Of a stretch of 43,015 bases of DNA, positions 10,438 to 42,953 are shown one piece after another. Under the pieces are notes generated by a model that was not told the origin of the DNA, made no database searches, and saw only the letters and a list, made by a program, of their open reading frames with translations. The first letter of the stretch is position 1, and every line of letters begins with the position of its first letter. This DNA is from a bacterium (GTDB taxonomy: Bacteria; Lindowbacteria; 2-12-FULL-62-27). The position numbers were made by a program, and so were the translations under genes. The DNA is taken from positions 1-43,015 of the forward strand of contig JACQOF010000006.1 of assembly GCA_016202645.1 (NCBI GenBank). The letters run 5' to 3'.

Positions 10438-10543
10438 GTTACTGCTCAGCCTTCTCCGTCATTCCCGCGAAAGCGGGAATCCAGTTCCGACTGGCTGCGA
10501 TCTGGATTCCCGCCTTCGCGGGAATGACGACACGAACAGTATT
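10438..10543. repeat. Family A palindromic element, copy 2
   Basis: Left arm CCGTCATTCCCGCGAAAGCG, right arm CGCCTTCGCGGGAATGACGA, with outer ends GTTACTGCTCAG and GAACAGTATTG. It sits 20 bases upstream of the tRNA-Leu 5' end, between the tRNA and its best promoter candidate. Confidence 0.85.
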
Positions 10544-27234: not shown

Positions 27235-27609
27235 ATGGCCAAACTTCTGGTGATCGATGATGACAGGGACACGATGCGGATTCTTGAGGCCAAGCTGACT
27301 GACGCCGGGTACCAGATTCTGCAGGCGACGGACGGCAAGGCCGGGTTGGAGAAGGCGCAAGAGACTCTGCCCGACCTGATCCTGCTTGACGTGATGATGC
27401 CGGAGCTGGACGGGCTCTCAGTGCTCAAGCATCTGAAATTCGACGCGCAGACAGAAAAGATTCCGGTGATCATCATGACGGCGAAGGGGGAGAAAATGGA
27501 GGGCGTCTTCAAGATGGAGGGCGCCGCCGGATATCTCACCAAACCCTTCGTGTTCGCCAGCCTTCTGGAGGAATTGAACAAATCTCTTCCGAAAGAGCGC
27601 GGGCGATGA
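27235..27609 (+). CDS. Stand-alone response regulator receiver (CheY-like)
   Basis: A 124-residue receiver domain with no output domain. The acidic pair Asp8/Asp9 (VIDDD), phospho-acceptor Asp52 (LLLDVMMPELDG), the Thr of IIMTAKG and Lys of YLTKPF are all present. It is the first gene of an operon with a MoxR-type ATPase, whose start overlaps its stop (ATGA). No histidine kinase is adjacent, so its input is unknown. ATG 27235 is preferred to 27223 because of the promoter position. Confidence 0.92.
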   Translation: MAKLLVIDDDRDTMRILEAKLTDAGYQILQATDGKAGLEKAQETLPDLILLDVMMPELDGLSVLKHLKFDAQTEKIPVIIMTAKGEKMEGVFKMEGAAGYLTKPFVFASLLEELNKSLPKERGR

Positions 27610-28577
27610 CCGTGTCGGCCGCGCCGTCCGCCGCGGAATTCCGCGCGAAACTTCTGGCCGCGGTTGGCCGCCGGATCGTCGGCCAGGAGGCCGTGCTCGA
27701 TCAGATGGCGGTGGCGCTCGTGGCCGGCGGGCACGTGCTTCTCGTCGGCGTTCCGGGCCTGGCCAAGACTCTGATGGTGCAGAGTCTCGCGTCCGCCTGC
27801 GACCTTTCTTTTTCCCGCATTCAATTTACGCCGGACCTCATGCCGTCCGACATCATCGGCACGGAAATCCTGGTGGAGGACCAACAGCGCCGCCGCGAGT
27901 TCCGGTTCCAGCGCGGGCCGATCTTCGCGTCCATCATTCTCGCCGACGAAATCAACCGCACGCCCCCCAAAACCCAGGCGGCGCTCCTCGAGGCGATGCA
28001 GGAACGCCAGATCACCGTCGCCGGCGCGGACCATCCCCTGCCCGATCCGTTTTTTGTCCTCGCCACGCAAAATCCGATCGAGCAGGAGGGGACTTATCCC
28101 CTGCCCGAAGCCCAGCTCGACCGGTTTTTATTTTCGCTTGAAGTCCGCTACCCGACGGAGGATGAGGAGCGGAAGATCCTGACGCGCGAGAGCGCCGCGG
28201 CCGGCGAGCCGATCCGGCCGGTCGTCACGGGCGACGAGATCAAAGCCTTCCAGGCCCAAGCCCGCGATATTTTGGTGGCCGACAGTCTCGTGTCGGCGGT
28301 GGTGCGGATGCTGAGGGAGAGCCGGCCGGAAGTGTCCAGCATCCCGGAAGTCCAGCGGCATGTGAGGCTCGGAGTCGGGCCGCGCGCCGGGACGTTTCTC
28401 ATCACGGCCGCCAAGGCCAGGGCGCTGCTTTCGGGCCGCTCGCATGTGACGCCGGAGGACATCCGGTCGGTTGCCGCGCCGGTTCTGTCCCATCGGTTGC
28501 TCATGGATTTCACGGCGGAAGCCGAAGGAGTCCGCGCCGGACAGCTCATCGAGCGTCTCATCGGCCTCATTGCTTGA
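27606..28577 (+). CDS. MoxR-family AAA+ ATPase
   Basis: A 323-residue MoxR ATPase. Walker A is VGVPGLAKT (47-55), and Walker B with the MoxR signature is IILADEINRTPPKTQAALLEAMQE. Sensor 1 (FVLATQNPIEQEGTYPLPEAQLDRF) and the C-terminal lid domain are intact. MoxR proteins act as chaperone-like ATPases with VWA/DUF58 partners, and the next genes are exactly such partners. Its ATG overlaps the receiver stop, and its own stop overlaps the DUF58 TTG start. Confidence 0.95.
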   Translation: MTVSAAPSAAEFRAKLLAAVGRRIVGQEAVLDQMAVALVAGGHVLLVGVPGLAKTLMVQSLASACDLSFSRIQFTPDLMPSDIIGTEILVEDQQRRREFRFQRGPIFASIILADEINRTPPKTQAALLEAMQERQITVAGADHPLPDPFFVLATQNPIEQEGTYPLPEAQLDRFLFSLEVRYPTEDEERKILTRESAAAGEPIRPVVTGDEIKAFQAQARDILVADSLVSAVVRMLRESRPEVSSIPEVQRHVRLGVGPRAGTFLITAAKARALLSGRSHVTPEDIRSVAAPVLSHRLLMDFTAEAEGVRAGQLIERLIGLIA

Positions 28578-29470
28578 TTGAACATCAACTCCATCCGGCC
28601 GGCGGCGGCCGGGCTCAAACCCTCTTTGACGTAATCGGCGGACTCAAAGTCCGCCCGAGATTCTGCCGCGCCGAAGGTCCCTCGGGACTGCATCGGTCGC
28701 CCCAGCGCGGCGAGACTGTGGAATTTTCGGAATACAAACCCTACGCGCCCGGCGTGGAACTCCGGTTCCTCGACTGGAAACTCTACGCCCGGACCGACCG
28801 CCTCTACGTCAAATCCTTCTGCGACGAGCGCGCGTCCCGGTTCCTTCTCGTCGTCGACGACAGCCCCTCGATGCGGTTTCCGCCGGAAGGCCGGACGAAA
28901 CTGGATCTCGCGCGGGACTTGGCGGCCGGCCTGGCCTTTCTGGCCGCGCAGAAGCAGAAGGACGCCGTGGGTCTGTTGCCGCTGTCACAGGTTGCTTCGG
29001 GCATCTCCGGCGATTTCCGGTCCTTCGGGTGGCTTCTTTCCGAACTTCAAAAAGAATCTTTCGCCGCGCCGTCCCAACCGTCTGCGCCGCCCTCTCCGCT
29101 TGCGGACGCGCTGTCGATGCTGGACCTCCGGCATCCCACCACCGTGATTTTTATTTCGGACTTGTACGAGGCGCCGTCCCGGCTGATGACCCTGGCGCTC
29201 GGCGCGCGCCGCCGGGGCCATGAATTCTGGTTCATGCACGTTCTTTCCAAAGAGGAAATCGCCCTGCCCTTTTCGGAATTCCGAAATTTCGTTGACATGG
29301 AATCCTCCGAACGCGTCGACCTCGATCCCCAGGCCGTCCGGGCACACTACAGCGGCGCCCTCCACGATCACCTGCAGGCCCTGAAACCTCTTGCGGGCAT
29401 GGGCCGGTATGGAATGGGCATCCTGGGACAGAACCCCGCGGACATTTTGAAGAGGTTTCTCGCTGACTGA
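28574..29470 (+). CDS. DUF58 / VWA-like protein
   Basis: A 298-residue DUF58 protein. The family motif ELRFLDWKLYARTDRLYVKSF (about 62-82) is followed by a VWA-like fold with the MIDAS DDSPS (95-99) and a DLYEA strand later. It is presumed to be a partner of the MoxR ATPase in envelope-associated complex assembly. TTG 28574 overlaps the moxR stop (TTGA) and gives the conserved N-terminus. No signal peptide or membrane segment, as usual for DUF58 in Bat-type operons. The next gene starts three bases after its stop. Confidence 0.93.
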   Translation: MIEHQLHPAGGGRAQTLFDVIGGLKVRPRFCRAEGPSGLHRSPQRGETVEFSEYKPYAPGVELRFLDWKLYARTDRLYVKSFCDERASRFLLVVDDSPSMRFPPEGRTKLDLARDLAAGLAFLAAQKQKDAVGLLPLSQVASGISGDFRSFGWLLSELQKESFAAPSQPSAPPSPLADALSMLDLRHPTTVIFISDLYEAPSRLMTLALGARRRGHEFWFMHVLSKEEIALPFSEFRNFVDMESSERVDLDPQAVRAHYSGALHDHLQALKPLAGMGRYGMGILGQNPADILKRFLAD

Positions 29471-29473
29471 GCC

Positions 29474-31249
29474 ATGAACTTCGGCGTCCCGGCGCTCCTG
29501 CCTTGGATCGGGCTTCTCGCATTGCCCTGGATCCTGCATCTTTTTCTCTTCCGGAAATCAAAAACTTTGCTCTTTCCGTCGGTGTTTTTTCTCAAACGAT
29601 GCGTCGGCTGGTCCCGTCGGCTGAAACTCCGCCGCCTCCTGCTCCTCCTCACCCGCTCGGCGCTCATCCTCTATTTTGTTCTCAGCGTCCTCGATCCGCG
29701 GATCGAACGGGCCGCCTCATCCGTGTCCGCCGGTCCCGCTCTCATCGTCCTCGACGACCGGCCGGCCATGCGGATGAAATTGCTGGCGAAGTCCGAATCG
29801 TTCCTTCAGCTGTACCGGTCGGCCGCCGTCGAGGAATTGAATCGCCGTCCCCCGGAATCGGTCCTCGGAGTGTCGGTGCTGTCGGAATTGGCTCTGTCCG
29901 GATCTGCCGGCCACGTGTCTCCGGGCAACTCCGCCGCAACGCTTCGGAATGCCGCAACCTATCCGTTGGATTTTCCGGCCGAACCCCTCCTTCGCTCCGC
30001 CGCCGCGCGGATCCCGCCCGGCGCCCGGATTATTTTCTTCAGCCCCTTTCAACTGAATCTTCAGGATCCGAATATCGTCCGGACAGGGCCAGTGTCCCCG
30101 TCTGAACCGAACCTGAGTCTGCTCTCTCTGGATGCGCCCGCCGCCGGGGCGCTCGGAACGCCGGTTTCGGTCCGGGCAACGGTGGTGGACCAATTCGGCC
30201 TTCCCGCGGATGCCATGGTCAGGCTTCTCTTGAATGATCGGCAGATATCAGTCGCTAGAACGGAGCAGGGCGTGGCAACGTTTCTGGTTGGAGAACTTCC
30301 GGCGGCCCGCCACCTCTTGCGGGTCGAAGTGGCCGGGTCCGAAAGCGACGCCTATCCGGACGACAACTTCCGCATGGCCCAAATCGACGTGCGGACGGAC
30401 CGCCCGGTCGGGATCGCGGCGCGGGTCGTGCCGCCGGCCCTGATCGCGGCCCTGCGTGCGCTGGGCGCGTCCGATCCCGAATCGTTCCGGATCGCCTCGG
30501 AAAAAGAATGGCGCGTCCGCGAGCGCATCCTCGTGCTGGACGGCGGCGCCGCGCGGGAAGAATGGATCAGTGATGCGTTGGCCCGCGGCGCGGAGGTGAT
30601 CGTCTTCGGGGTCCCTCCGGAATCTGGAACAGTCGGAACCCCGGCTGAGCTTCGCCGGAGGATAGAGTCTCTCGGTTCCGGGGGCTTTGTCCGGGCCGCG
30701 TTTACCCTCGACGACCCGTCTCTCCTGGTGGACCCCGTTTACTTGATGCTCGTCCGGGAACTTATTTCTTCGGGTCTGAATCGGAAAGAGGCGCCGCCGC
30801 CGTCTGCCGTCTTCGCCGAAATGCCGCTCGCCCGCGGCGCGACGATCCGGATCGGGCCGGCCGCGCCTTCCGGAACGGTGCGGTTTGTACGGATCAGCCT
30901 CTCCGAGGCCCCAAGTGCCTCCGCCTCCGGCGGAGGCTTGGACAATCAAATCATTCCGCTGGCGCTGGGTTATTCCCGGGGAGCGTTTTACGCCGAACTG
31001 CCGTCCTCCTCTCACGCTCCCGGCCTCTACCGGTTCTTGATCGGCGCCGAGGAAAAGGGCCGCGTCCACGTTCATGCGGCGCCGCCCCCGCCGCTGGCCA
31101 TTCCCGTGGCCGCGGAATTTCAAAAACGGCGATCGTCCGTCGGGCCGTTTTTCTTCTGGATTGCCGTCCTCCTGATGGCGGTAGAATTGTTGCTTCTGCG
31201 TCATATGCGTTCCGGCGCAAGCCCGGCTCATCCGGGAATCGCGGGTTGA
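29474..31249 (+). CDS. BatA-domain membrane protein
   Basis: A 591-residue protein with the N-terminal BatA signature: two membrane helices around PWILHLFLFRKSKTLLFPSVFFLKR and LKLRRLLLLLTRSALILYFVLSVLDP. The large extracytoplasmic region follows the layout of these proteins, which resemble a BatA/BatB fragment with immunoglobulin-like parts. One membrane helix lies near 555-577. Like the other genes of this operon it probably forms part of a Bat-type envelope complex of uncertain purpose. A short palindrome at 30908-30942 lies inside the coding sequence. Its stop is one base before the next ATG. Confidence 0.85.
   Translation: MNFGVPALLPWIGLLALPWILHLFLFRKSKTLLFPSVFFLKRCVGWSRRLKLRRLLLLLTRSALILYFVLSVLDPRIERAASSVSAGPALIVLDDRPAMRMKLLAKSESFLQLYRSAAVEELNRRPPESVLGVSVLSELALSGSAGHVSPGNSAATLRNAATYPLDFPAEPLLRSAAARIPPGARIIFFSPFQLNLQDPNIVRTGPVSPSEPNLSLLSLDAPAAGALGTPVSVRATVVDQFGLPADAMVRLLLNDRQISVARTEQGVATFLVGELPAARHLLRVEVAGSESDAYPDDNFRMAQIDVRTDRPVGIAARVVPPALIAALRALGASDPESFRIASEKEWRVRERILVLDGGAAREEWISDALARGAEVIVFGVPPESGTVGTPAELRRRIESLGSGGFVRAAFTLDDPSLLVDPVYLMLVRELISSGLNRKEAPPPSAVFAEMPLARGATIRIGPAAPSGTVRFVRISLSEAPSASASGGGLDNQIIPLALGYSRGAFYAELPSSSHAPGLYRFLIGAEEKGRVHVHAAPPPPLAIPVAAEFQKRRSSVGPFFFWIAVLLMAVELLLLRHMRSGASPAHPGIAG
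30912..30940. repeat. Palindrome inside the BatA-domain gene
   Basis: CAAGTGCCTCCGCCTCCG followed by GCGGAGGCTTG forms CAAG-GCCTCCG/CGGAGGC-CTTG arms. It encodes a low-complexity SASASGGG stretch in frame. The CCAAGTGCC start is shared with the hairpin at 20694-20720. Confidence 0.5.
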
Positions 31250-31250
31250 A

Positions 31251-33248
31251 ATGACCGCGGCGCACTTCGAATTCCTCAGCGACTGGCGGACCATCGGCCT
31301 CGCGCTTCTGGTTCTCGCTTCGCTGTTGGCCCTCGCCGCCGGATTCGTCTACCCGGGACGGTTCAAAACGGGGCTGACGGCCCTGCGTCTGGCGGTCCTG
31401 ATCTGTTTTTTTCTCGCCATTGCGTCCTTCACGGTCGTGATGACGCGGCCCTCCGGCGAATCGGACGTGCTGTACGTCCTCATGGACCGGTCGGTCAGCA
31501 TGGACCGGAAGGAGGAGGGATCCCAGCCGGAAAAATCCCGCGCGGACCGGGCGTTGGAGGCGCTTGACGGCCTTGCGGAATTTTTCCGGAAAGAAAGCCG
31601 TGACGTCCATCCGATCTATTTCGCGGCCGCGGCCTCCGAGTCGCCCCGCCAGGTGGGGGACCGGCGGATGACGCAGTACGCGCCCGCCCTCGCGCTCCTG
31701 CTCGAAAAAATATCGGCCGGACCTTCCCGGAAAGCGCGCGCGGTGATGATTTCAGACGGCGCCGCGTCGGACGAACCGGGCATCGATCCGCATCTGTCCG
31801 CGCTGGTGACCCGCGGCGTTTCCGTGTCGGTCTATCCCGTGGGCGCAAGGCCCGAGGACTGGGATGAGGAATCTCAGCCGGGAAATCAGCCGCCCCGGCT
31901 GTTTTTCAGGGTTCCGCCGCCCGCAACCGCCACCGTCGGCGAAAGCATCCCGCTGGATCTCGGATACATCTCGTCCGCCGCGTCGAGCCTGACGGTCTTT
32001 GACGGATCGGCGGTACTCCTTCAGCGAAAAATCCCCGGCCGCGGCGGTCCGCCCGACCTGCCGTCGTCCCTGAGTATTTCTTCACCGGGTCTGAAAACAA
32101 TCCGGGTTGAGGCGAAAAATTCCGCGGGCAAGTCGGAACTCCGGTTTCGGATCAAGATCCTGCCGCGCCTGGCCTTCGAACTGCGCGGCCGCCCATCCTG
32201 GGACGCCCGATTGTTTCTGACGTCGGCCGGCAGCCGCCCGCAGATATCCGTCCGGGGCGGGTGGGGCGCGGAAAAGGCGTCTCCGAAATCCGACCCCTCT
32301 CCGGAACATCCAGTCCTCTACGTCCTGTTTGATCCGGGACAGGACCTCGCCGTGCCGGAGCGCGCGCCGGCGGTCTACTGGCCGCAGATGGAACCGGCGC
32401 GGATGGACCGCCAAACCCGCGGGATCCGCTGGCTGGGCAGGCAGACGGGATCGTTTCTTCCGGCTTTTCTCTCCGAAGATCCCCGCGCGTCTTCCCGGAT
32501 GCAGCCTCTGACGGCCCGGCAAAAAATTTCTCTGGACCTGGGCTGGAAAGTCCTGGAACGCTACACGGATGGCGAGGTCTTCCTGGCCGAGCGGGATGAC
32601 ACGCAGGCGCCGCCGGCTTTTCTGGTCAACGGGGAGGGTCTCTGGCGCTGGCGCCTGAATCCCCAGCTCATGAATGCGCCCTATTCGCGCGTCCTCGAAC
32701 GCATGATTGCCTGGGGATGGAAGTCGACTTCGCCGCCTGTCGAATTGTTCGCTCTTCAGGAAATCGGGCAGATCGGCGCTGGTCTCGACATCGTTGCGCT
32801 CTTTTCCGCTCCGCCGAATGGCGTGCCCCCCTTGGAAATTCTCAGGCCGGACGGCTCGCGACAGACCGTTTACGGCGCCGGCGCCGCCGCCGCCCGGTAT
32901 TCGTTCGTTCCGTCTCTCGAAGGTTCGTACCGGGCGGTGATCCGTTCGCAAGGCGCACCTACCAGCCTGACCTTCCAGGTTTCCGATATTCCATTTGATA
33001 TCGCGCATCCGGAAGCCCGGCCGGACACCCTGCGCCGGATCGCCGCGCGGACCGGCGGCGTTGTTTTGCGGGACCGCCCCCATCAGCCGCTTGAAGCATC
33101 CCTGGGCCATGCGCTCGCCTTGCCGGAAAATGTCTCGCCGAGTTTCGAGGAACATCGCGTCACCCTGTCCCGCACGCCGCTGTTCTTTGTCATCCTCGCC
33201 CTGCTCATGTGCGTTCTCTGGACCCTGGAATCCCGTTGGCTCCGCTGA
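31251..33248 (+). CDS. VWA-domain membrane protein of the Bat-type operon
   Basis: A 665-residue protein. Two N-terminal helices (14-32, 42-64) precede a VWA domain with the MIDAS motif DRSVS (79-83) in YVLMDRSVSMD. A long extracytoplasmic region follows, and a final helix lies near 640-660 (LFFVILALLMCVLWTL). The C-terminal part resembles glutamine-amidotransferase-like proteins that often occur in DUF4159/DUF58 operons, though no catalytic triad was recognised. It starts one base after the BatA gene and overlaps or abuts the DUF4159 gene, so the operon is translated as one unit. Confidence 0.88.
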   Translation: MTAAHFEFLSDWRTIGLALLVLASLLALAAGFVYPGRFKTGLTALRLAVLICFFLAIASFTVVMTRPSGESDVLYVLMDRSVSMDRKEEGSQPEKSRADRALEALDGLAEFFRKESRDVHPIYFAAAASESPRQVGDRRMTQYAPALALLLEKISAGPSRKARAVMISDGAASDEPGIDPHLSALVTRGVSVSVYPVGARPEDWDEESQPGNQPPRLFFRVPPPATATVGESIPLDLGYISSAASSLTVFDGSAVLLQRKIPGRGGPPDLPSSLSISSPGLKTIRVEAKNSAGKSELRFRIKILPRLAFELRGRPSWDARLFLTSAGSRPQISVRGGWGAEKASPKSDPSPEHPVLYVLFDPGQDLAVPERAPAVYWPQMEPARMDRQTRGIRWLGRQTGSFLPAFLSEDPRASSRMQPLTARQKISLDLGWKVLERYTDGEVFLAERDDTQAPPAFLVNGEGLWRWRLNPQLMNAPYSRVLERMIAWGWKSTSPPVELFALQEIGQIGAGLDIVALFSAPPNGVPPLEILRPDGSRQTVYGAGAAAARYSFVPSLEGSYRAVIRSQGAPTSLTFQVSDIPFDIAHPEARPDTLRRIAARTGGVVLRDRPHQPLEASLGHALALPENVSPSFEEHRVTLSRTPLFFVILALLMCVLWTLESRWLR

Positions 33249-33901
33249 CAAGGTTCTGGGCGTTGGTTTTGCTGTCGATCCCGGCGGGTCTCTCCGCCGC
33301 GGCCTCCGAACTGCCGGGCTTCGCGCGAGTCTCCTACGGCGGGGGCGGCGACTGGTACAACGACCCGGGGATTTTGCAGAATCTCCATCGGTACGCCCAG
33401 AAACGGACGGGGTTCCCGTTCGACATTCAGGAACCGGTCGTTCGGCTGACCGACCCGGACCTGGCCGAGCACCCGTTTTTATATCTCACGGGTCACGGGG
33501 ACGTCCGTTTCTCGGACGAGGAGATATCCCGGCTCAGGGCATTCCTGCTCGGCGGCGGCTTCCTCTACGCGGACGACGATTTCGGAATGGATGAATCCTT
33601 CCGGCGGGAAATGAAAAAAGTCTTCCCGGAAAAATCTTTCGTCGAACTGCCGAAATCCCACAAGCTTTTCTCAGCCTGGTTCGATTTCCCGGACGGCGCC
33701 CCAAAAATCCACAAACATCATAGCGGCCCCCCGAGAGTCCTGGCTCTCATGGAAGGCCCGCGGATCCTCGCGCTCTACACCTTCGACACCAACATCAGCG
33801 ACGGCTGGGCCGACCCGGAAGTCCACCAGGATCCCCCGGCGGCCAGGGAGGCGGCGCTGAAGTTCGGGGTGAATATTCTGATGTTGCCTTTTTTGGAGTA
33901 G
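33236..33901 (+). CDS. Exported DUF4159 protein
   Basis: About 221 residues. A signal peptide (LTRFWALVLLSIPAGLSAAASE) precedes a DUF4159 domain: FARVSYGGGGDWYNDPGILQNL, FLYLTGHGDVRFSDEEISRLRAFLLGGGFLYADD, then HKLFSAWFDFP. DUF4159 proteins are usually encoded with MoxR, DUF58 and BatA-type genes, as here. Their function is not established. TTG 33236 gives a normal signal peptide and overlaps the VWA gene by 13 bases; GTG 33209 is an alternative with a longer N-terminus. A family A repeat begins right after the stop codon. Confidence 0.88.
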   Translation: MAPLTRFWALVLLSIPAGLSAAASELPGFARVSYGGGGDWYNDPGILQNLHRYAQKRTGFPFDIQEPVVRLTDPDLAEHPFLYLTGHGDVRFSDEEISRLRAFLLGGGFLYADDDFGMDESFRREMKKVFPEKSFVELPKSHKLFSAWFDFPDGAPKIHKHHSGPPRVLALMEGPRILALYTFDTNISDGWADPEVHQDPPAAREAALKFGVNILMLPFLE

Positions 33902-34001
33902 ACAACGGTCCTCTCCGTCATTCCCGCGAACGCGGGAATCCAGATGATCGCTGGGCGGACTGGATTCCCGCTTTCGCGGGAATGACGACCTGAACAGTTG
34001 C
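33902..34001. repeat. Family A palindromic element, copy 4
   Basis: Begins at the first base after the DUF4159 stop. Left arm CCGTCATTCCCGCGAACGCG, right arm CCGCTTTCGCGGGAATGACG, outer right end CCTGAACAGTTGC. It lies between the convergent ends of the Bat-type and Mla operons. The following 34005-34045 holds five irregular TTGA iterations and no gene. Confidence 0.88.
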
Positions 34002-34055: not shown

Positions 34056-34850
34056 TCACTTCTCCCCTTTGCTCTTCCGGATCAGCTTCCACGGATGACG
34101 CCGCACGTCGGAGGAAAGGGCCTTGAGGTTGTCGCTTGTCGTGTTCAGGTTCTTCACCATCTCGTGGATCTCTGGTCGATTCTCCGCAGTCATCCCCTTG
34201 AGGTTCTCGGCCAGGGCTTCGATGTCGCCCGCCGCCGCCTCGATCTTTTTCAACAGACCCGGTAGATGGTCCGAACTTTTCGCGGCGTTCGACAGAATCC
34301 GCTCAAGATCGTCCCCGTGCTCGGCCGACAGGCGGCGCAGAGTCGAGGTCACTTCGTTCATGTCCTCAGTCAGTTTCAGGACGTTCGCCGCGACCTGCCG
34401 GATGTTGCCAGAGGTCTTGTCGTCCAAAAGAGAGCCGACCTGATCGAATATCTGCGACAGGAGGATCGGGTCGGACCCCCGGAGGACGTCGCCATCCGGA
34501 AGGGGCTCTCCCGCCGCCGGCAGAATCTCCACGACTTTCTCGCCCATCATGCCCATCGACGCGATCAACACCTCCGCGCCGCGGCTCACCGGAAGATCCT
34601 TCGGGACCGTCAGCGTCGCCCGGAGCCGGACGGGCGTCCCGGGAAGAATCTGGACCGATTCGACCTTGCCGACCCTGTACCCCGCATACTGAACGGGCGC
34701 GTCTGGCCCGAGCCCGTCGACGTATCCAAATTCAACCAGAACTTCCCGGGTCGGGCCGGTGAATTGTCCGATTGAGAAAACAAACACGGCAAATATCACA
34801 ATCCCTGCCGCCGCAAAAATGCCCGCCGTCAGTTCCTTTCGTTCGTTCAT
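34056..34850 (-). CDS. mlaD: MlaD-type MCE-domain protein
   Basis: A 264-residue protein. One N-terminal transmembrane helix (about 9-28, TAGIFAAAGIVIFAVFVFSIG) precedes an MCE domain (about 35-115, with YAGYRVGKVESVQILPG and LIASMGMMGEKVVEI). A long alpha-helical coiled tail follows (about 130-250). MCE proteins form hexameric rings in the periplasm that carry phospholipids between membranes. GGGGAGG precedes ATG 34850. It follows mlaF by 16 bases, and mlaE/mlaF complete the ABC transporter. MlaC and MlaA homologues are not in the window. Confidence 0.92.
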   Translation of the reverse strand: MNERKELTAGIFAAAGIVIFAVFVFSIGQFTGPTREVLVEFGYVDGLGPDAPVQYAGYRVGKVESVQILPGTPVRLRATLTVPKDLPVSRGAEVLIASMGMMGEKVVEILPAAGEPLPDGDVLRGSDPILLSQIFDQVGSLLDDKTSGNIRQVAANVLKLTEDMNEVTSTLRRLSAEHGDDLERILSNAAKSSDHLPGLLKKIEAAAGDIEALAENLKGMTAENRPEIHEMVKNLNTTSDNLKALSSDVRRHPWKLIRKSKGEK

Positions 34851-34866: not shown

Positions 34867-35658
34867 TTATTCCGCCCCCATCATGCTCTTCAAATATTCG
34901 TCCCGGTGCCGTCTCAGCGGGATGGGACCGTCCGGCTGGCCGTCGATGAATTGCCGGATCAGCGGGTCCCTTGACGCCCGGAAGTCGCCCGGTTTCCCCT
35001 CCGCAACCACGACGCCCTCGTGAAGCAGGATCATGCGGTCGGCGACGGTGAACGCGCTTTTCATTTCGTGCGTCACCAGGATCGTTGTGATCTTCGTCTT
35101 CTTCGTCAGATCCAGAATGAGCTGATCGATCGCCGCCGACATGACCGGGTCAAGACCGGCCGACGGCTCGTCCATGAACAACACCTCGGGGTCCAGGGCC
35201 ATCGCCCGGGCCAGCGCCACGCGCTTGGCCATCCCGCCGCTGATTTGCGAGGGCTTTAAATCCCCGAATCCCGTCAGTCCGACCATGTCGAGCTTCATCT
35301 TCACCATGATGTCGATCACTTTTTCCCCGAGATCCGCGTGTTCGCGGATCGGAAACGCGACGTTCTGGCCGACCGTGAGGGACCCGAATAGCGCCCCGCC
35401 CTGAAAACAAAATCCCCAGCGTTTCCGCAGCCGGTCCAGCTCCGCCTCCGACATTCGGGCGATGTCCTCCCCGTCATACCTCACGGACCCCGCGGTCGGC
35501 CGCTCGATTCCGGACAGCACCCGCAGGAGCGTCGATTTCCCGCACCCGCTTCCGCCCATGATCACCACGGTCTCGCCGGTCTCGATGGTGAACGTCACGC
35601 CCTTGAGAACACACCGCGGGCCGTAGCGCTGTTCGACTCCGCCAACTTCAATTTTCAT
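34867..35658 (-). CDS. mlaF: MlaF-type ABC transporter ATPase
   Basis: A 263-residue ABC ATPase. Walker A is GGSGCGKST, the Q-loop region is FCFQGGALFGSLTVGQNVAFP, the signature is ISGGMAKR, Walker B is VLFMDEPSAGLDP, and the switch His is in TILVTHEMKSA. The ALFGSLTV and GGMAKRVALARA segments are typical of the Mla/Ttg2A group. It powers phospholipid transport with MlaE and MlaD. Its ATG overlaps the mlaE stop by four bases. The C-terminal tail is short, about where MlaF contacts its STAS-domain partner MlaB in E. coli. Confidence 0.95.
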   Translation of the reverse strand: MKIEVGGVEQRYGPRCVLKGVTFTIETGETVVIMGGSGCGKSTLLRVLSGIERPTAGSVRYDGEDIARMSEAELDRLRKRWGFCFQGGALFGSLTVGQNVAFPIREHADLGEKVIDIMVKMKLDMVGLTGFGDLKPSQISGGMAKRVALARAMALDPEVLFMDEPSAGLDPVMSAAIDQLILDLTKKTKITTILVTHEMKSAFTVADRMILLHEGVVVAEGKPGDFRASRDPLIRQFIDGQPDGPIPLRRHRDEYLKSMMGAE

Positions 35659-36428
35659 ATCGCGAAATAAAACAAAGCCGTAAAGAGCAAATCCGCGACG
35701 ATGATCGCCACGATCGACATGACCACCGTCTCGGTCGTCGCGGTACCGACGCCCACGGCGCCGCCCCGGACGTAGTAGCCCTTATAGCAGGCGATGAGCC
35801 CGATCAAAATCGCGAAGATGATGCTCTTGGCGAACCCCGTCAGAAAATCCTTCATCACGAGGCCTTCGACGGCCACTTTGTAGAAAAGCTCCGGCGGAAG
35901 ATGCAGATACCCCCAGCCAATCACAAGTCCCCCCGCGATCGCCACGGAATCGCCGATGAGGGTCAGGATCGGGAGCGCGATGATGAGGCCGGCGACGCGG
36001 GGGACGAGAAGGATCCGGACGGGATTCAACGCCATGGTCCGAAGCGCCGTGATTTCCTCCGAAACGGCCATCGTCCCCAGCTCCGCCGCGACGCCGGCGC
36101 CGACCCGGCCCGATACCAGAATCGCCGTGATGAGCGGTCCGAGTTCGCGGACGACCGAGACCGACACAAGCGACGCGACGTAGAGCGTGGCGCCGAACTT
36201 GGCAAGCTGGTAGGCCGTCTGCATCGCCAGGATCATGCCGACGAAACCGCAGATGAGAACGACGATCGGCACGGATCCGACTCCCATCCGGTGGATGAAC
36301 CAGACGATCTCGGCGCCCTTTGGAAATTTCCCCCGAAGGGACTGCAGGAGCCCCCGTTCGACAATGTCTCCGGAAAGCAGACAAAACCGGCCGAACCGCT
36401 CCAGGCTGTCGGCGAGCCTACTCGACAA
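35655..36428 (-). CDS. mlaE: MlaE-type ABC transporter permease
   Basis: A 257-residue permease of the MlaE family with five to six hydrophobic segments. It contains the conserved MGVGSVPIVVLICGFVGMILAMQTAYQL region, RELGPLITAILVSGRVGAGVAAELGTM, and a late GLIACYKGYYVRGGAVGVGTATTE motif. It forms the membrane channel of the Mla complex. TTG 36428 overlaps the STAS gene by 11 bases, so its translation should depend on that gene. Confidence 0.95.
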   Translation of the reverse strand: MSSRLADSLERFGRFCLLSGDIVERGLLQSLRGKFPKGAEIVWFIHRMGVGSVPIVVLICGFVGMILAMQTAYQLAKFGATLYVASLVSVSVVRELGPLITAILVSGRVGAGVAAELGTMAVSEEITALRTMALNPVRILLVPRVAGLIIALPILTLIGDSVAIAGGLVIGWGYLHLPPELFYKVAVEGLVMKDFLTGFAKSIIFAILIGLIACYKGYYVRGGAVGVGTATTETVVMSIVAIIVADLLFTALFYFAI

Positions 36429-36729
36429 TTTCGAACACCTCCATCAAGTGCGCTATCTCGAAAACCGCCTTCACCTGCGGCGTCATGGCCTTCAGCACGA
36501 GCCGGCCCTTGGTCTTGTTCAATATCTGGAGCATCTCCACCAGCGTGGCGATCCCGGATGAGTCCATGTACGCGACGCCGGCGAGGTTCACCGTGACGGT
36601 CTTCAGGCCCTGGGCGGATGCGGACTTGAACAAGTCCCGAAGTTTCGGCGATGTGTTCATGTCGACTTCTCCCGCGACATGGATGACCGCCTCGCCCGGA
36701 GACAGGACTTCGCTTTTGAGATCCAACAT
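36418..36729 (-). CDS. STAS-domain protein (anti-anti-sigma factor or MlaB-like)
   Basis: A 103-residue single STAS domain. It has the VAYMDSSGIATLVEML loop, whose serine is the residue phosphorylated in SpoIIAA/RsbV-type proteins. It sits between a gene encoding a phosphatase/kinase fusion (upstream) and mlaE, which it overlaps. It could be an anti-sigma antagonist switched by the upstream protein, the MlaB partner of the Mla ATPase, or both. ATG 36729 lies at the edge of a family A element, and the only ribosome-binding site (GGAGAGG, 11 bases upstream) belongs to that element. Confidence 0.88.
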   Translation of the reverse strand: MLDLKSEVLSPGEAVIHVAGEVDMNTSPKLRDLFKSASAQGLKTVTVNLAGVAYMDSSGIATLVEMLQILNKTKGRLVLKAMTPQVKAVFEIAHLMEVFEIVE

Positions 36730-36835
36730 GACTATTCAGACCTCTCCGTCATGCCCGCGAAGGCGGGCAACCAGACACCCACCAAGCAGACTGGATTCCC
36801 GCTTTCGCGGGAATGACGGCCTGAATCGTTACGAT
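36730..36835. repeat. Family A palindromic element, copy 5, filling an operon gap
   Basis: It occupies essentially the whole interval between the SpoIIE-type gene stop (36836) and the STAS ATG (36729). Arms are CCGTCATGCCCGCGAAGGCG and CCGCTTTCGCGGGAATGACG; the outer right end is CCTGAATCGTTAC. On the minus strand it reads GGAGAGG-TCTGAATAGTC-ATG, so it supplies the STAS ribosome-binding site. Confidence 0.9.
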
Positions 36836-38497
36836 CTAACACTCCAACCGCCGCCTGAGAACCAGCCGGTTGCCGTCCGGCACGGATGGATCGTATCGGA
36901 ACTCCTCGAAAATTTTCCGGATGAAGTGGACCCCAAGACCACCCGGCCGCACGTCTTCAAGCGCCCGGCCGGCGACGCGGGCGGGGTCGACCTTCGGGCC
37001 GTAGTCCCGGACGACGGTTTCAAAACCGTCCGGCGAGGCCTCCATCGTGATTTCAATTTCCCGCGTCTGGTCGTTCTTGTACGTGTGGCGGATCACGTTG
37101 CTTACCGCCTCCGACAGCGCCACCTGGATTTCCGTGAGAATCTTGGGGTCGACGCCGGTCAGCACCCTTGCCGCGGCGTTCCGGACCAGGGCGAGATAGG
37201 CGGGGTGGGATGTCATTTCAAAGCTGAGGCGGGAAACGCCGGCCATGTTTCCGAAGCCCACGGCGGTCGTGTCGTCCACGGGATCGGACTCTCCGCCGAA
37301 GCGGTCGAGATCGAGATAGATTTTTTCGAGAAGAAGCGCCGGCGGCAGATCGTTTTTGGAGAGCAGGGCTTCAAACCGGCCCATCCCGTAAAGTTCTCCG
37401 GCGGAATTTCTGGCCTCCGTCACGCCGTCCGTCACCGCCAGCACCCGGGACCCCGGCGGGAGGTCGACCCGGTGCGAGACAAACACGCGGTCCGGCAGGA
37501 TGCCGAGCGGCGGATTCTTGTCGCGGCTCACGCTCTGCCAGCGGCCGTCCTTGTACAGAAGATACGGCAGGTGCCCCGCGTTCGCCACCGTCATTTTCCG
37601 TCCGGTCGATTCGATCAGAAACAGAATCATCGTCACGAACATCCCCCGGGTCGACTGCTCCGCCAGGTGGCGGTTCACCGCTCCCAGCGCCGCCTCCGGC
37701 CGGCGGTCGTGCTTGAGACTGCCCCGGATTTCCGTGACCAACCGGCACATGTAGAGCGCCGCGGGAAGTCCCTTGCCGGAGACGTCGCCGATCAGGACGG
37801 CAACGCGGCCGTCCGGCGTGCGGAAGGCGTCGTAAAAATCTCCGGAAACCTGTTGCGCCGGCGCCAGCCGCCCCGAAAATTCCGTTCCCTCCAGCGCCGG
37901 GAATTCCCTCGGCAGGTAGCTTTCCTGGACCTGCCGCGCCGCCGTGATTTCCTGGCGGATCTTTTCCTGGTCGAGAAGATGCTTGTGGAGCCGCGCGTTT
38001 TCGATTGCCACGCCGAGCGTGCCGGAAAACGCGGAGAAAAGCCCGAGGTCCTCGTCGGTGAAACTGCCGCCATCCGTCCGGTTGATGACCTGCGCCACCC
38101 CGATCAGCCGGTCCGCCCCCTCGATGGGGACGCAGAGGACGCTCCGCGTCTGAAATCCGGTCTTGCCGTCGAAATAGGCGTTGAAGCGCTTGTCCTTCCG
38201 GACGTCCTCTATCAGGAGGGGCTGGCGGTGCTTCGCGACGTGGCCGGCGATGCCTTCGCCGACACGGATGCGGTGATTTTTCAGGATGTTTTCCGCGTCC
38301 CCGAGCGCGACGGCGAACTCGAGGTATTCGCCGGTCGGATCCAGAAGCAGAATACTGCCGGTCTCGGCGTCGACGACTTCCCGCTCAAGCTCCAAACTCC
38401 GCTTCAGGACCTCGGAAATGTCCAGGCTTCCGGCCACCGTCTGGTTGATCCGGATAAGTTTCCTGAGCTTGGGCGAAATATCCGCTTGGGACATCAT
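36836..38497 (-). CDS. GAF-SpoIIE phosphatase-HATPase fusion regulator
   Basis: A 553-residue cytoplasmic partner-switching regulator. Residues about 20-165 form a GAF sensor domain. About 175-400 are a PP2C/SpoIIE phosphatase with SGDFYDAF, VLIGDVSGKGLPAALYM and VLAVTDGVTEA metal sites. About 415-550 are an RsbW-like HATPase_c domain (ALSEAVSNVIRHTY; DYGPKV; GGLGVHF). It thus carries both a phosphatase and a kinase-like module, as in HsbR-type proteins, able to reset a STAS antagonist. The STAS gene follows, separated only by a repeat. The promoter ends seven bases before ATG 38497, so the mRNA should be leaderless; an ATG follows at once as second codon. Confidence 0.92.
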   Translation of the reverse strand: MMSQADISPKLRKLIRINQTVAGSLDISEVLKRSLELEREVVDAETGSILLLDPTGEYLEFAVALGDAENILKNHRIRVGEGIAGHVAKHRQPLLIEDVRKDKRFNAYFDGKTGFQTRSVLCVPIEGADRLIGVAQVINRTDGGSFTDEDLGLFSAFSGTLGVAIENARLHKHLLDQEKIRQEITAARQVQESYLPREFPALEGTEFSGRLAPAQQVSGDFYDAFRTPDGRVAVLIGDVSGKGLPAALYMCRLVTEIRGSLKHDRRPEAALGAVNRHLAEQSTRGMFVTMILFLIESTGRKMTVANAGHLPYLLYKDGRWQSVSRDKNPPLGILPDRVFVSHRVDLPPGSRVLAVTDGVTEARNSAGELYGMGRFEALLSKNDLPPALLLEKIYLDLDRFGGESDPVDDTTAVGFGNMAGVSRLSFEMTSHPAYLALVRNAAARVLTGVDPKILTEIQVALSEAVSNVIRHTYKNDQTREIEITMEASPDGFETVVRDYGPKVDPARVAGRALEDVRPGGLGVHFIRKIFEEFRYDPSVPDGNRLVLRRRLEC

Positions 38498-38557: not shown

Positions 38558-40615
38558 ATGGCGAAGGAACGCGAGATCATTTTCCAGTTCCGGCTGGACG
38601 ACGATCCCCCAAAAAATAACGCCGCCGTCGAGCGGTTTTTGAAAGATCTGATCCGGGCCTGGGAAAAGAGCGATGAGATCCGGACGGAACTCGACGCGGT
38701 GAAGTCCGAGGGCGGCGCTTACAGCGTCGACTTCCGGGCCTACGTCCCCAAACTCTCCACCGACGTCCGGGGCGTCGAAATCGTCGGCCGGGGAGACGAG
38801 GAATACGACCAGATTTTCGAACTGGCGATCCTGCTCCTCGAGGAAAAACTCCAGAAAAAAGAAGTCCCCTACATCATGCGCGCCTCCAAGGAGCGCTTCA
38901 CCGCGGGTTTCGAGGACCTCCACATGCGGCTCGACGAGATCGACGAAGTGCTGAAGGAGAAGAAGCTGACGGAAGAGGAGCGCAAGGAGATCGTCGCGGA
39001 CCTGTCGGGGATCGTTTCCAAGCTAGATTTTCTGGCGCTGAACATCCGCCTGATCGAGGACCGGATCGTCGAGATGATGAACCGCTATGAACTTGAGATC
39101 CAGAAAGCGCCCTCGTCCACGCCGTCCCCGGCGCCCCAGCCGCCCCAGGAACTCGCCGTGAACCGCCCCCGGGACGACTTCGTTCAGCATTTCTCCGCCG
39201 GCAGCGGGTATTTCGACCTCGGTCTCTACAAGGAAGCCGCCGAGGAGTTCGGCCGGGCGATTGCCATCGACAAGAAGGACTTCGGCGCGCGGACGAACCT
39301 CGCCTGGGCGTACCTCCTCGACAACAAAATCGACATGGCGATCAAAAAATTCCAGGAGATCCTCAAGGCCCGGCCCGAGTACGTCCACGCCTACAACGGC
39401 CTCGGCTACGCGCTTCTTCGGGCCGACCGGAACTTCGAGGCCCGCACGGCCTTTCAGAAAGTCCTTGAATCTCCGGCCTCCGACAAAAATACCCGGTACT
39501 TCGCCCATATCAATCTGGGTCTCCTCTACGAAAAAGAAACCGACCCGGACCGGGCCATCCGCGAGTTCGAGAAGGCGTCGGCCCTGCTCCCGAAAAATCC
39601 CGACGCGCATTTCAACATCGCCAACGTCTATTACAATATCGGTCTCTACGACGAGGCCGAACGGAAGTACAGAAAAACCCTGGAACTCAAGCCCGGGTCC
39701 ACCACCGTCAAGCATTTCATGCTCGCCGCGCGCGCGCAGACGGAAATCCAGGGGAAAAAATACGACGAGGCCCGCGCGCTCTATGAGGAGATCATGGCGG
39801 CCAAACCCGCCGAACCCATTTTCTATAATAATTTCGGGTCTCTCCTCGAAAAAATCGGCGACTACCCGGGGGCCCTCCAGGCCTACAAGGACGCCACGCG
39901 GCTGGACCCGTCCTACGCGATTTCCTATTTCAACCTCGGCTATATCTTTGACCGCATGATGAACGCGCGCCGGGCCATCGGCTATTACAAGAAATTTCTG
40001 GAATTTCATCCGGAAGACAAGATCGCCCTCAACAACCTCGGCTGGGACTATTTTGTGCTTGGAGAAAACGACAAGGCGATCTACTACTACAAAAAAGCCG
40101 CGGCGATTGACGACAAGTTTACCTATCCCGTCAACAACATGGGATGGCTGTACATAAAAACAGGACAGTACGAGGAGGCTGCATCATGTTACGCGCAAGT
40201 GTTGAAAAAAGATCCGAGGAACGCCCTCGCCTACAACGACCTGGGGTATCTGTATTACCTCAAGGGCCTGTACGACCGGGCGATCGTGGAGCTGAAGAAG
40301 GCGGTCAAATTTTCGAAGAAGGAGGACGTGGCCTACGTCTACGCGCATTACCACCTGGGGCTCGTGTATCATACGATCGGCAAGCCCGACCGGGCCCTCG
40401 AGGCCTTTACGCTGGCCCTGGCGACGGACGACAAATACGTTTCGGCGCACGAGAAAGTCGCGGAATTGTACGAGTCGCTGGGGAGCTTCCAGAAAGCCAA
40501 AGACCATTACAAGAAATGCCTGGAACTTCTGGACCCGAAGAGTTCGCTCAAGGAGAAAATCCAGTCCAAACTCAGGAGCCTGTCCCAGCGCGAGAAGACC
40601 AGGGGCGAGGTGTAA
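38558..40615 (+). CDS. TPR-repeat protein with novel N-terminal domain
   Basis: A 685-residue soluble protein. Residues 1 to about 185 form an unrecognised domain that begins with strands (EREIIFQFRLDD) and has a helical, coiled-coil-like part (about 115-185). A Pro/Ala linker (STPSPAPQPPQ) leads to about twelve canonical TPR units (for example ARTNLAWAYLLDNKIDMAIKKFQEILKARPEYVHAYNGLGYAL). No signal peptide is present, so it is a cytoplasmic scaffold. It is first in an operon with an NYN RNase and a diguanylate cyclase, and is divergent from the SpoIIE regulator. ATG 38558 is seven bases after the -10 box. Confidence 0.88.
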   Translation: MAKEREIIFQFRLDDDPPKNNAAVERFLKDLIRAWEKSDEIRTELDAVKSEGGAYSVDFRAYVPKLSTDVRGVEIVGRGDEEYDQIFELAILLLEEKLQKKEVPYIMRASKERFTAGFEDLHMRLDEIDEVLKEKKLTEEERKEIVADLSGIVSKLDFLALNIRLIEDRIVEMMNRYELEIQKAPSSTPSPAPQPPQELAVNRPRDDFVQHFSAGSGYFDLGLYKEAAEEFGRAIAIDKKDFGARTNLAWAYLLDNKIDMAIKKFQEILKARPEYVHAYNGLGYALLRADRNFEARTAFQKVLESPASDKNTRYFAHINLGLLYEKETDPDRAIREFEKASALLPKNPDAHFNIANVYYNIGLYDEAERKYRKTLELKPGSTTVKHFMLAARAQTEIQGKKYDEARALYEEIMAAKPAEPIFYNNFGSLLEKIGDYPGALQAYKDATRLDPSYAISYFNLGYIFDRMMNARRAIGYYKKFLEFHPEDKIALNNLGWDYFVLGENDKAIYYYKKAAAIDDKFTYPVNNMGWLYIKTGQYEEAASCYAQVLKKDPRNALAYNDLGYLYYLKGLYDRAIVELKKAVKFSKKEDVAYVYAHYHLGLVYHTIGKPDRALEAFTLALATDDKYVSAHEKVAELYESLGSFQKAKDHYKKCLELLDPKSSLKEKIQSKLRSLSQREKTRGEV

Positions 40616-40716
40616 GGCATCAGGGGCGGGGACAGCGCCCGCCGCATCGCGGAGACGGCCGGCCGCTCGTTCGGACTCTCCGCCAGCGGCCGCCCACGCG
40701 TCTTCGGGATCAGCGC

Positions 40717-41178
40717 CTGGCGATCCTGGTCGACGTGCAGAACATGTTTTATTCGGCCAAGTACCAGCACAACGCCAAGCTGAATTTTTCGCGGCTCAAG
40801 GACATCATCGTCTGCGGCCGCCAGCTCGTTCGGGCGATCTGCTACATCGTCCAGACCCCGGAAATCGACCAGAGCAATTTCATCAAGACCCTCGAGGCCA
40901 TCGGGTATGAGGTCAAGAGCAAGGACTTGAAACTCCGGCAGGACGGGTCGGCCAAGGGCGACTGGGACATGGGCATCGCGATCGACGCCATGTCGATCGC
41001 CTCCCGGGTCGACGTCATCGCGCTCGTGACGGGCGACGGGGATTTTTCGGAACTGGTGTGGCACCTTCGCGGCCAGGGCGTCCGGCTTGAGGTCTATTCC
41101 TTCGAGCAGAGTACCGCGGAGGAACTGAAACGCGCCGCGACGGCCTATTGTCCCCTGAGCGAGTCGGTCCTCATGTGA
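40717..41178 (+). CDS. NYN-domain (LabA/DUF88-like) ribonuclease, start unresolved
   Basis: A PIN-like NYN domain of about 150 residues. Catalytic acidic positions are visible in ILVDVQNMFY, KGDWDMGIAIDAM and LVTGDGDFSELV. Such proteins are predicted RNases for RNA processing or decay. The core is certain but the start is not: between the TPR stop (40615) and the motif there is no ATG, GTG or TTG in any plus frame. A CTG at 40717 fits family N-termini (LAILVDVQN). The nearest in-frame conventional start is ATG 40516, deep inside the TPR gene, which would add 67 residues with a long Arg-rich linker. The stop overlaps the GGDEF gene start (ATGTGA). Confidence 0.8.
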   Translation: MAILVDVQNMFYSAKYQHNAKLNFSRLKDIIVCGRQLVRAICYIVQTPEIDQSNFIKTLEAIGYEVKSKDLKLRQDGSAKGDWDMGIAIDAMSIASRVDVIALVTGDGDFSELVWHLRGQGVRLEVYSFEQSTAEELKRAATAYCPLSESVLM

Positions 41179-42953
41179 TCGAGACCTTCCGGCGCGGGCT
41201 TGCGCCGAAATTTCTCCTTCTGATCGGTCTGGTCGTCGCCGGCGTGACGGCGGCGGTGGTGTACTTCGCGCTCAATGTCTACCGCGACAGCATGTACCGC
41301 CAGCTTCTCACGCGCGCGTTCAACAATCTCGAGAACATCAACACGCGCCTGCAGAATTCCCTCTGGACCAAAACCGGCCGGCTCAAGGGCGTCCGGGAAC
41401 GGTCGATCTCCGCGGAGCTTCCGCCGGAACTGGTCTACCGCGTCGAAAAAATTTTCGACGACCTCCTGAGAAGCGACGACGCCGTCCGGTACTTCGTCCT
41501 GCACTACCCCGGCGGCACCCTGATCTATCCCGGAATCCCGGGGCCCAAGAAGGGACGGCTGAAAGCGGACCGGAATTCTGTCAGGGACGTGGAGAAAGTT
41601 GACGCGCGCTACAACCGCGAGACCGGCTACGTCGAGACCTTCATCGCCATTCCCGACCGGGAAAACAACGCGTGGGCCCACATCGAAATGGGCTTGAGCA
41701 CGGCGGCGGTGGAAAGCGGAATTCTCCGGACGGTCGTCAGCAGTTCCATCGTCGCGCTCCTTTGCATCGGGGTCGCCCTCGCCGTCGCCCGGCACTTTCT
41801 GAAAAATATCCTGGGGCCCGTCAAACGCCTTCAGACCGCCGCCGCCTCCATTTCCTCCGGAGACCTCGCCCAGCGAGTGCCGGTCACGACGACCGATGAG
41901 ATCGCGGACCTCGGACGGTCCTTCAACACGATGGCCGACAGCCTCGACCACCGCATCCAGGACCTGAACGCGGTCCAGGCGTTTTCGAAGGAAATGAGCG
42001 CGAAGCTCAGCCGCGAGGAACTTCTGCGGACGATCGTGCAGACCTTCGCCAAAATTTCCGGCGCGGGCCAGTGCGCGATGCTGTCGCTGTCGAAGGACAA
42101 GAGCCATTTTTTCGTCTCTTCCGGGATCGGCGTCGTCGAGGAACACGCGAAACTTCCGCCCGACGGCCGGGTCCTCTCCCGCCTCGGAAACGGCGTGGAG
42201 GATCTTCACCTCGCGGCGCCGCTTGAGGCGTGCCCGGAGTTGGAAATTTTCTATCCGCACGGCATCCCCATTCCGTCCGCGCACGGCGCGCTCGTCCTCC
42301 CCCTCCGGATCCGCGACCGCCTCGACAGCGTGATGCTCCTGCTGGGGGAAAATCTCAACGCGGGCGCGGACGACCTGCGCCTCTACCGGACCCTGCTCGG
42401 GCACACAGTTGTCTCGATTCAAAACGCCAGATTGTATGAACTGGCCATCACGGATGGTCTGACTGGACTTTTCCTTCGCCGGCACTTTCTCTTCGAACTC
42501 GATCGCATCCTCGAATCCCCGCCCGGCGTCGGCCTGGCCCTCGTCATGCTCGACATCGATCACTTCAAAAAAGTCAACGACACCTACGGCCACCCGGAAG
42601 GCGATTTCATCCTCGTGTCCGTCGCCGAAACCCTGCGCCAGACTCTCCGGACGGCCGACATCCGCCGTGCCGCGCGCGATCCGGACATCCTCGGCCGGTA
42701 CGGCGGGGAGGAGTTCATCGCGCTTCTGCGGAACGTTGACCGGGCCGGCGCCCAAATCGCGGCGGAAAAAATGCGCCGGGCAATCGAGGACGCGGCGTTC
42801 GCGGGAGAAAAACACCGCCATCGAATCACCGTCAGTCTTGGGGTATGCCCGTACCGTCCGGGCCTGAAACCGGAAGAATGGATTTCGCTGGCGGACGGCG
42901 CTCTGTATGCTTCGAAGTCCGGGGGAAGGAACCGGGTGACGGTGCATGAATGA
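41175..42953 (+). CDS. Membrane diguanylate cyclase (sensor-HAMP-GAF-GGDEF)
   Basis: A 592-residue c-di-GMP synthase. It has an N-terminal helix (about 9-30), an extracytoplasmic sensor (about 32-175), a second helix (about 180-202), a HAMP domain (about 203-255), a GAF domain (about 270-415) and a GGDEF domain (about 420-590). The active-site signature is RYGGEEF, and metal-site residues lie in MLDIDHFKKVNDTYGH. An RxxD product-inhibition site (RDPD) stands exactly five residues before GGEEF, and a second RxxD (RTAD) lies nine residues further up. GTG 41175 overlaps the NYN stop. It probably ends the operon; a family B repeat follows its stop. Confidence 0.94.
   Translation: MIETFRRGLAPKFLLLIGLVVAGVTAAVVYFALNVYRDSMYRQLLTRAFNNLENINTRLQNSLWTKTGRLKGVRERSISAELPPELVYRVEKIFDDLLRSDDAVRYFVLHYPGGTLIYPGIPGPKKGRLKADRNSVRDVEKVDARYNRETGYVETFIAIPDRENNAWAHIEMGLSTAAVESGILRTVVSSSIVALLCIGVALAVARHFLKNILGPVKRLQTAAASISSGDLAQRVPVTTTDEIADLGRSFNTMADSLDHRIQDLNAVQAFSKEMSAKLSREELLRTIVQTFAKISGAGQCAMLSLSKDKSHFFVSSGIGVVEEHAKLPPDGRVLSRLGNGVEDLHLAAPLEACPELEIFYPHGIPIPSAHGALVLPLRIRDRLDSVMLLLGENLNAGADDLRLYRTLLGHTVVSIQNARLYELAITDGLTGLFLRRHFLFELDRILESPPGVGLALVMLDIDHFKKVNDTYGHPEGDFILVSVAETLRQTLRTADIRRAARDPDILGRYGGEEFIALLRNVDRAGAQIAAEKMRRAIEDAAFAGEKHRHRITVSLGVCPYRPGLKPEEWISLADGALYASKSGGRNRVTVHE

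Follow-up and report, generated by a model that had tools for sequence, protein, structure and literature searches.

Gene content of the locus

The stretch of DNA analysed here (the window, 43,015 nucleotides) belongs to a 2.9-Mb metagenome-assembled genome of Candidatus Lindowbacteria, 82% complete. Its nearest named relatives, in which MlaE is 84-85% identical, are also Candidatus Lindowbacteria, a phylum sampled by three genomes. The genes follow each other on the minus strand in the order GAF-SpoIIE-HATPase, STAS, mlaE, mlaF and mlaD (table 1), so that the fusion gene is found ahead of a STAS gene with a DSSG motif, and the latter overlaps mlaE, with mlaF and mlaD following, as in the preliminary description of the locus. 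The mlaE gene has a TTG start and shares 11 bp with the end of the STAS gene, and a 4 bp overlap is found between mlaE and mlaF.

Table 1. Features of the locus, with positions counted along the window.
Feature	Position	Strand	Remarks
GAF-SpoIIE-HATPase_c_2 fusion	36836..38497	-	553 aa; Pfam SpoIIE 4e-47, HATPase_c_2 3e-25, GAF 9e-19
Palindromic (REP/MITE-like) element	about 36740..36822	.	~80 bp; between fusion gene and STAS gene
STAS	36418..36729	-	103 aa; Pfam STAS 5e-18; NCBIfam ant_ant_sig above cut-off
mlaE (permease)	35655..36428	-	Pfam MlaE 3e-71; TIGR00056 above cut-off
mlaF (ATPase)	34867..35658	-	263 aa; best solved relatives are MlaF chains, C-terminal extension aligned
mlaD (MCE-domain protein)	34056..34850	-	264 aa; Pfam MlaD 5e-13
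TPR protein	38558-40615	divergent	conserved in the other two Lindowbacteria
HAMP-GGDEF protein	41148-42953	divergent	not beside the module in two other Lindowbacteria
Dispersed palindromic element, paired copies	10456-10530, 10964-11037, 33915-33988, about 36740-36822		arms GATTCCCGCTTTCGCGGGAATGACGG

The catalytic residues are intact in both the SpoIIE and the HATPase domains of the fusion protein. From its domain composition, this protein is predicted to sense a signal and to act on the STAS protein as both phosphatase and kinase, with SpoIIE as a PP2C-type phosphatase and HATPase_c_2 as a kinase of the RsbW/SpoIIAB type. The GAF domain retains some elements of the NK-F-D motif known from phosphodiesterase GAF domains, and among solved structures its best relatives are the GAF domains of PDE5 and PDE2; our guess is that it binds a small molecule, possibly a cyclic nucleotide. 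The phospho-site motif of the STAS protein is D56-S57-S58-G59, the Ser57 codon being at 36561..36559.

The palindromic element that separates the fusion gene from the STAS gene folds at -53 kcal/mol (z -5), and one of its arms has seven matches in the window versus 0 expected. It is absent from the two nearest relatives (L008 and L009), and the fusion gene of L009 directly adjoins the start of the STAS gene, from which we infer that a tight operon is likely the ancestral state in this lineage. The element is probably incidental, and it could influence read-through from the fusion gene into the STAS gene.

The divergent genes at 38558..42953 encode TPR, NYN and HAMP-GGDEF proteins, and include the diguanylate cyclase from which a connection with c-di-GMP had been proposed. 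However, the cyclase gene is not beside the module in either of the other two Lindowbacteria, both of which keep the TPR and NYN genes, and the c-di-GMP linkage was rejected for this reason. Convergent to the mla operon, a cluster at 27606-33901 encodes MoxR, a DUF58-like protein, two vWA/BatA-like proteins and another conserved protein, and it is partly conserved in L009/L108. The genome of the window has a second, unlinked MlaE-F-D set (L101), so that the linked system represents an additional transporter there.

Recurrence of the kinase-STAS-mlaE order

The first homologue search was carried out with MlaE only, neither STAS nor kinase being required, and yielded 70 named loci. The complete order from the GAF-SpoIIE-HATPase fusion to MlaD was found in two other Lindowbacteria and in five Elusimicrobia, while the HATPase is encoded separately in the Auribacterota loci L010 and L011, and Planctomycetota (L019, L021) show the order HATPase-STAS-MlaE. 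Among the loci of this search, relatives from Bacteroidetes, Verrucomicrobia and Lentisphaerae have MlaE-F-D without kinase or STAS. In 290 genomes sampled across the domain, from 223 families, about 90 MlaE loci taken from the better-scoring matches were examined, and at least 17 of these families proved to have the kinase-STAS-MlaE arrangement, which is a minimum; two genomes of this sample (G089, G229) are the same as entries of the Auribacterota search. The arrangement was found at 11 of the 12 closest MlaE loci in Auribacterota, the twelfth ending at a contig edge, and at 15 of the 28 closest in Planctomycetota. In Elusimicrobiota it is patchy, with MlaE of this type in 2 of 120 genomes.

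Overall, about 50 loci with HATPase-STAS-MlaE were seen, mostly with SpoIIE and MlaF-MlaD. The preliminary description had asked whether the gene order recurs in other genomes, and it proved to be widely conserved across several phyla (Lindowbacteria, Auribacterota, Elusimicrobiota and Planctomycetota). The possibility that the order is a peculiarity of the genome in the window was rejected on these grounds, and a chance arrangement is excluded because the same order recurs in many phyla. Exactly one STAS gene lies between the kinase and mlaE in every linked locus, and no third gene conserved in the linked operons was found. Some linked loci have a HATPase without a neighbouring SpoIIE. At L213 and L214 such a HATPase-STAS-mla set lies beside genes for a PASTA-domain protein, a Sun-like methyltransferase and a ribulose-phosphate epimerase, and the phosphatase for these two loci may be encoded elsewhere.

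The active-site and phospho-site residues are kept at the kinase-linked loci: the STAS phospho-position is Ser in 28 and Thr in one of 29, the Glu and Asn of the HATPase N-box are found in 29/29, and the metal-binding Asp residues of SpoIIE are invariant (22/22). These values bear on the alternative that the STAS protein is a constitutive MlaB-like subunit and that the neighbouring kinase and phosphatase do not act on it. Linkage of STAS to mlaE without a kinase does exist (L015, L038, L220), and no kinase is known for E. coli mlaB (PMC5016091). With that alternative, however, the kinase, phosphatase and phosphosite residues would not be expected to be kept despite great divergence, nor the kinase to adjoin STAS-mlaE both when fused to SpoIIE and when encoded separately, so that it is regarded as very improbable.

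STAS helix 2, the MlaF terminal helix and the MlaE tree

By sequence, the STAS protein is nearer to the anti-sigma antagonists RsbV and SpoIIAA than to MlaB, and its AlphaFold model (pLDDT 96) is likewise closer to RsbV and SpoIIAA (TM about 0.9) than to MlaB (0.6-0.75). It scores 27 bits with the NCBIfam MlaB equivalog NF033618, below the cut-off of 90, and is not assigned to MlaB for this reason. In the model helix 2 begins at Ser57, and the last helix seen in SpoIIAA is missing, as in MlaB, but a short fifth strand is present, unlike in the minimal STAS fold of MlaB. Helix 2 carries Ala61 in 29 of 29 and Glu65 in 28 of 29 kinase-linked STAS sequences, as opposed to 1/48 and 4/48, respectively, in unlinked STAS sequences, mostly from the same genomes and including STAS adjoining other HATPases, which mostly have Gly at position 61; the two positions were picked from the alignment with the linked sequences in view and the counts are to be read cautiously. 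Ala at this helix-2 position is also found in E. coli MlaB. By sequence and model, the protein resembles an anti-sigma antagonist whose helix 2 is of the MlaB kind, which is what would be expected if it were to serve both a kinase and MlaF.

Other partner-switch modules were seen along with the linked loci. Contig C72 of the same genome carries two, L002 (SpoIIE-STAS-HATPase) and L004 (SpoIIE-HATPase-STAS), the STAS proteins of which are without the Ala61 signature. At several planctomycetal loci (L020, L026-L028, L033, L036, L040, L047 and L077) a divergent SpoIIE-HATPase-STAS trio lies about 2.5 kb upstream of MlaE, and in several of the trio-bearing Planctomycetota a separate STAS adjoining MlaE has the Mla-type signature, which the STAS of the trio does not have.

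E. coli MlaF has a C-terminal extension of ~25 residues, the last helix of which (Tyr261, Leu265, Leu266) inserts at the MlaF-MlaB interface, as described in PMC7367683. The corresponding handshake extension of MlaF in the window is DGQPDGPIPLRRHRDEYLKSMMGAE, with Tyr255, Met259 and Met260 as the counterparts of these three residues. The terminal helix was detected at 28 of 28 kinase-linked loci versus 3 of 100 MlaE loci without STAS, counts that are not phylogenetically independent and for which the p-value is descriptive, the motif having been set after sight of the linked sequences and of the E. coli structure. The pattern misses the tails of L015 and L220, which are helix-like by eye, and the class-0 matches L062 and L149 are probably due to chance. 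A GPI-motif test of the MlaF tail gave no discrimination, and the terminal-helix test was used instead. Both the MlaF terminal helix and Ala61/Glu65 of STAS indirectly suggest a STAS-MlaF contact.

In a tree of 193 MlaE sequences, all kinase-linked rows fall in one clade of 54 rows (SH-aLRT 96), which also includes rows with a linked or a fused STAS and seven in which no STAS was detected. Since the linked loci mostly belong to this one clade, the co-occurrences correspond to few independent events. An independent-pairs test of STAS versus the MlaF helix had too few pairs for a clear result. A comparison of MlaE, STAS and HATPase distances gave no clear correlation either (0.28, p 0.03 for MlaE and STAS, and not significant for HATPase and MlaE). 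The MlaE proteins of E. coli, P. aeruginosa and A. baumannii are found in another part of the tree, so that the presence of STAS and the handshake helix in two separate parts reflects either an old shared state or two origins.

Loci without an adjoining STAS are also found near the linked clade: L014 (also L142, L227), L216 and L217, the last two located after a TolC-like gene. L014 keeps the MlaF terminal helix though no STAS adjoins. At eight further loci (L154, L157, L173, L188, L189, L194, L201 and L225) MlaE has a fused or directly preceding divergent STAS-like region and no kinase, and MlaF, where seen, is without the terminal helix; in the long MlaE rows L188, L189, L194 and L201 the N-terminal region is STAS-like, with weak or absent Pfam support.

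A putative phosphorylation switch acting on the transporter

The kinase-STAS-Mla arrangement would represent partner switching in a new form. By taking into account gene order and sequence signatures, it is likely that the operon encodes a partner-switching module with an ABC lipid transporter as its output, instead of or before a sigma factor. The single STAS protein would probably be both the substrate of the kinase and the MlaB-like subunit of MlaF, and would probably behave as an MlaB that can be phosphorylated.

In the solved E. coli MlaFB structure, MlaB contacts MlaF with the helical face that surrounds Thr52, helix 2 being central, and the T52E substitution makes binding weaker (PMC7367683). 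By analogy, the STAS protein would clamp the MlaF dimer by way of its helix 2 and of the handshake helix at the MlaF C-terminus, and the upstream GAF protein would also act on it, with the HATPase domain as its kinase and the SpoIIE domain as its phosphatase. It is the corresponding serine that SpoIIAA and RsbV offer to the kinase. Since the Thr52 face of MlaB binds MlaF and the serine of SpoIIAA and RsbV faces the kinase, the HATPase and MlaF would be expected to compete for one face of the STAS protein. Phosphorylation by the HATPase of Ser57, which lies where helix 2 begins and is central to the docking face, would cause STAS to leave MlaF or to stop activating it, so that transport would fall; a signal perceived by the GAF domain would then lead SpoIIE to dephosphorylate STAS, which would return to MlaF and allow transport to resume. 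In this scheme we infer enzymatic activity, STAS-MlaF binding, the on/off direction and the GAF ligand or signal. The T52A variant of E. coli MlaB abolishes ATPase activity without dissociation (PMC5016091), and, as this variant is bound yet inactive, phosphorylation might act on catalysis rather than on assembly.

The similarity with MlaFEDB of E. coli, P. aeruginosa and A. baumannii includes a STAS protein encoded with MlaE, MlaF and MlaD, the MlaF handshake helix, Ser or Thr at the phospho-position and Ala at the helix-2 position. However, MlaB has no known kinase or phosphatase, and in the window the STAS gene comes first rather than last, its product is far under the MlaB equivalog cut-off and MlaE lies elsewhere in the tree. 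In STAS-MlaE fusion permeases, STAS is also tied to MlaE, and relatives of these proteins are found inside the same MlaE clade, but the STAS region is fused and often degenerate, no kinase adjoins and MlaF is without the terminal helix. The Bacillus SpoIIE/SpoIIAB/SpoIIAA and RsbU/RsbW/RsbV systems share the same three enzyme and substrate domains, and RsbV and SpoIIAA are the nearest structures to the STAS model; they differ from the operon described here, which contains no sigma gene and has Ala61/Glu65 in STAS helix 2 where the Bacillus proteins have Gly/Gly. HsbR-HsbA of P. aeruginosa and CrsR-CrsA of Shewanella, as described, also combine PP2C and HATPase in a single polypeptide whose target is a STAS protein, with outputs beyond a single sigma factor. 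The comparison with HsbR/HsbA made in the preliminary description holds for the phosphatase-kinase fusion and not for the sensor, since a receiver domain takes the place of the GAF domain, and the targets given in PMC6482189 are FlgM, the cyclase HsbD and RpoS rather than a transporter.

An alternative is a classical partner switch with transcriptional output only, in which the HATPase would be an anti-sigma factor (for RpoD or the RpoS-like sigma) relieved by STAS, and the mla genes would merely be co-operonic. HsbR and CrsR, which share the PP2C-HATPase fusion, are described as binding RpoS (PMC6482189), the genome in the window encodes a 413-aa RpoD/RpoS-like sigma factor, and STAS is closest to anti-sigma antagonists. 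Such a switch is nevertheless improbable: a sigma gene was not found in the locus, nor a SigB/F/G factor above the cut-off in nine linked genomes, and it would leave unexplained a linkage that follows mlaE across phyla, the co-occurrence of the MlaF helix with this linkage, and a STAS helix-2 signature that is absent in other HATPase-linked STAS proteins. It is unlikely, though less so, that the switch is dual, with STAS binding MlaF and the kinase, and the HATPase also engaging a further protein, for instance a sigma factor, and thereby coupling the state of the transporter to transcription. This possibility is in line with a HATPase of the RsbW/SpoIIAB type and with the several partners of HsbA described in PMC6482189, but not with the lack of a conserved third gene in the linked operons.

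A switch acting on the transporter itself is supported by the conserved order, the near-invariant residues of kinase, phosphatase and phosphosite, and an MlaF helix and STAS signature that track the linkage. It is weakened by the linked loci without SpoIIE, the helix without STAS at L014, HATPase distances that do not correlate significantly with those of MlaE, a STAS protein nearer to RsbV/SpoIIAA than to MlaB and the palindrome that splits the fusion gene from the STAS gene. As to the initial proposal that Mla transport is gated by a GAF-sensed STAS phosphorylation switch, its core is supported, with a widely conserved gene order, and its c-di-GMP part is not. On balance, it is more likely than not that a widespread class of Mla-type lipid ABC transporters is switched directly by serine phosphorylation of its STAS subunit through a dedicated, operon-encoded, GAF-sensed phosphatase and an RsbW-type kinase, with transport, not transcription, as the output.

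A report of such a kinase-STAS-Mla system was not found in the open-access literature, as searched by titles, abstracts and selected passages. Control of E. coli MlaB by Thr52 phosphorylation has been proposed, with no kinase named (PMC5016091, PMC7367683), and the regulation of MlaB is called an open question in PMC7367683. With a candidate kinase and phosphatase now found next to MlaB-like genes of several phyla, MlaB-type regulation becomes directly testable with purified proteins. If the proposal is correct, an ABC transporter would join sigma factors and biofilm regulators as a target of partner switching, and these operons would represent a natural system of the kind that has been postulated for E. 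coli MlaB in the absence of a kinase.
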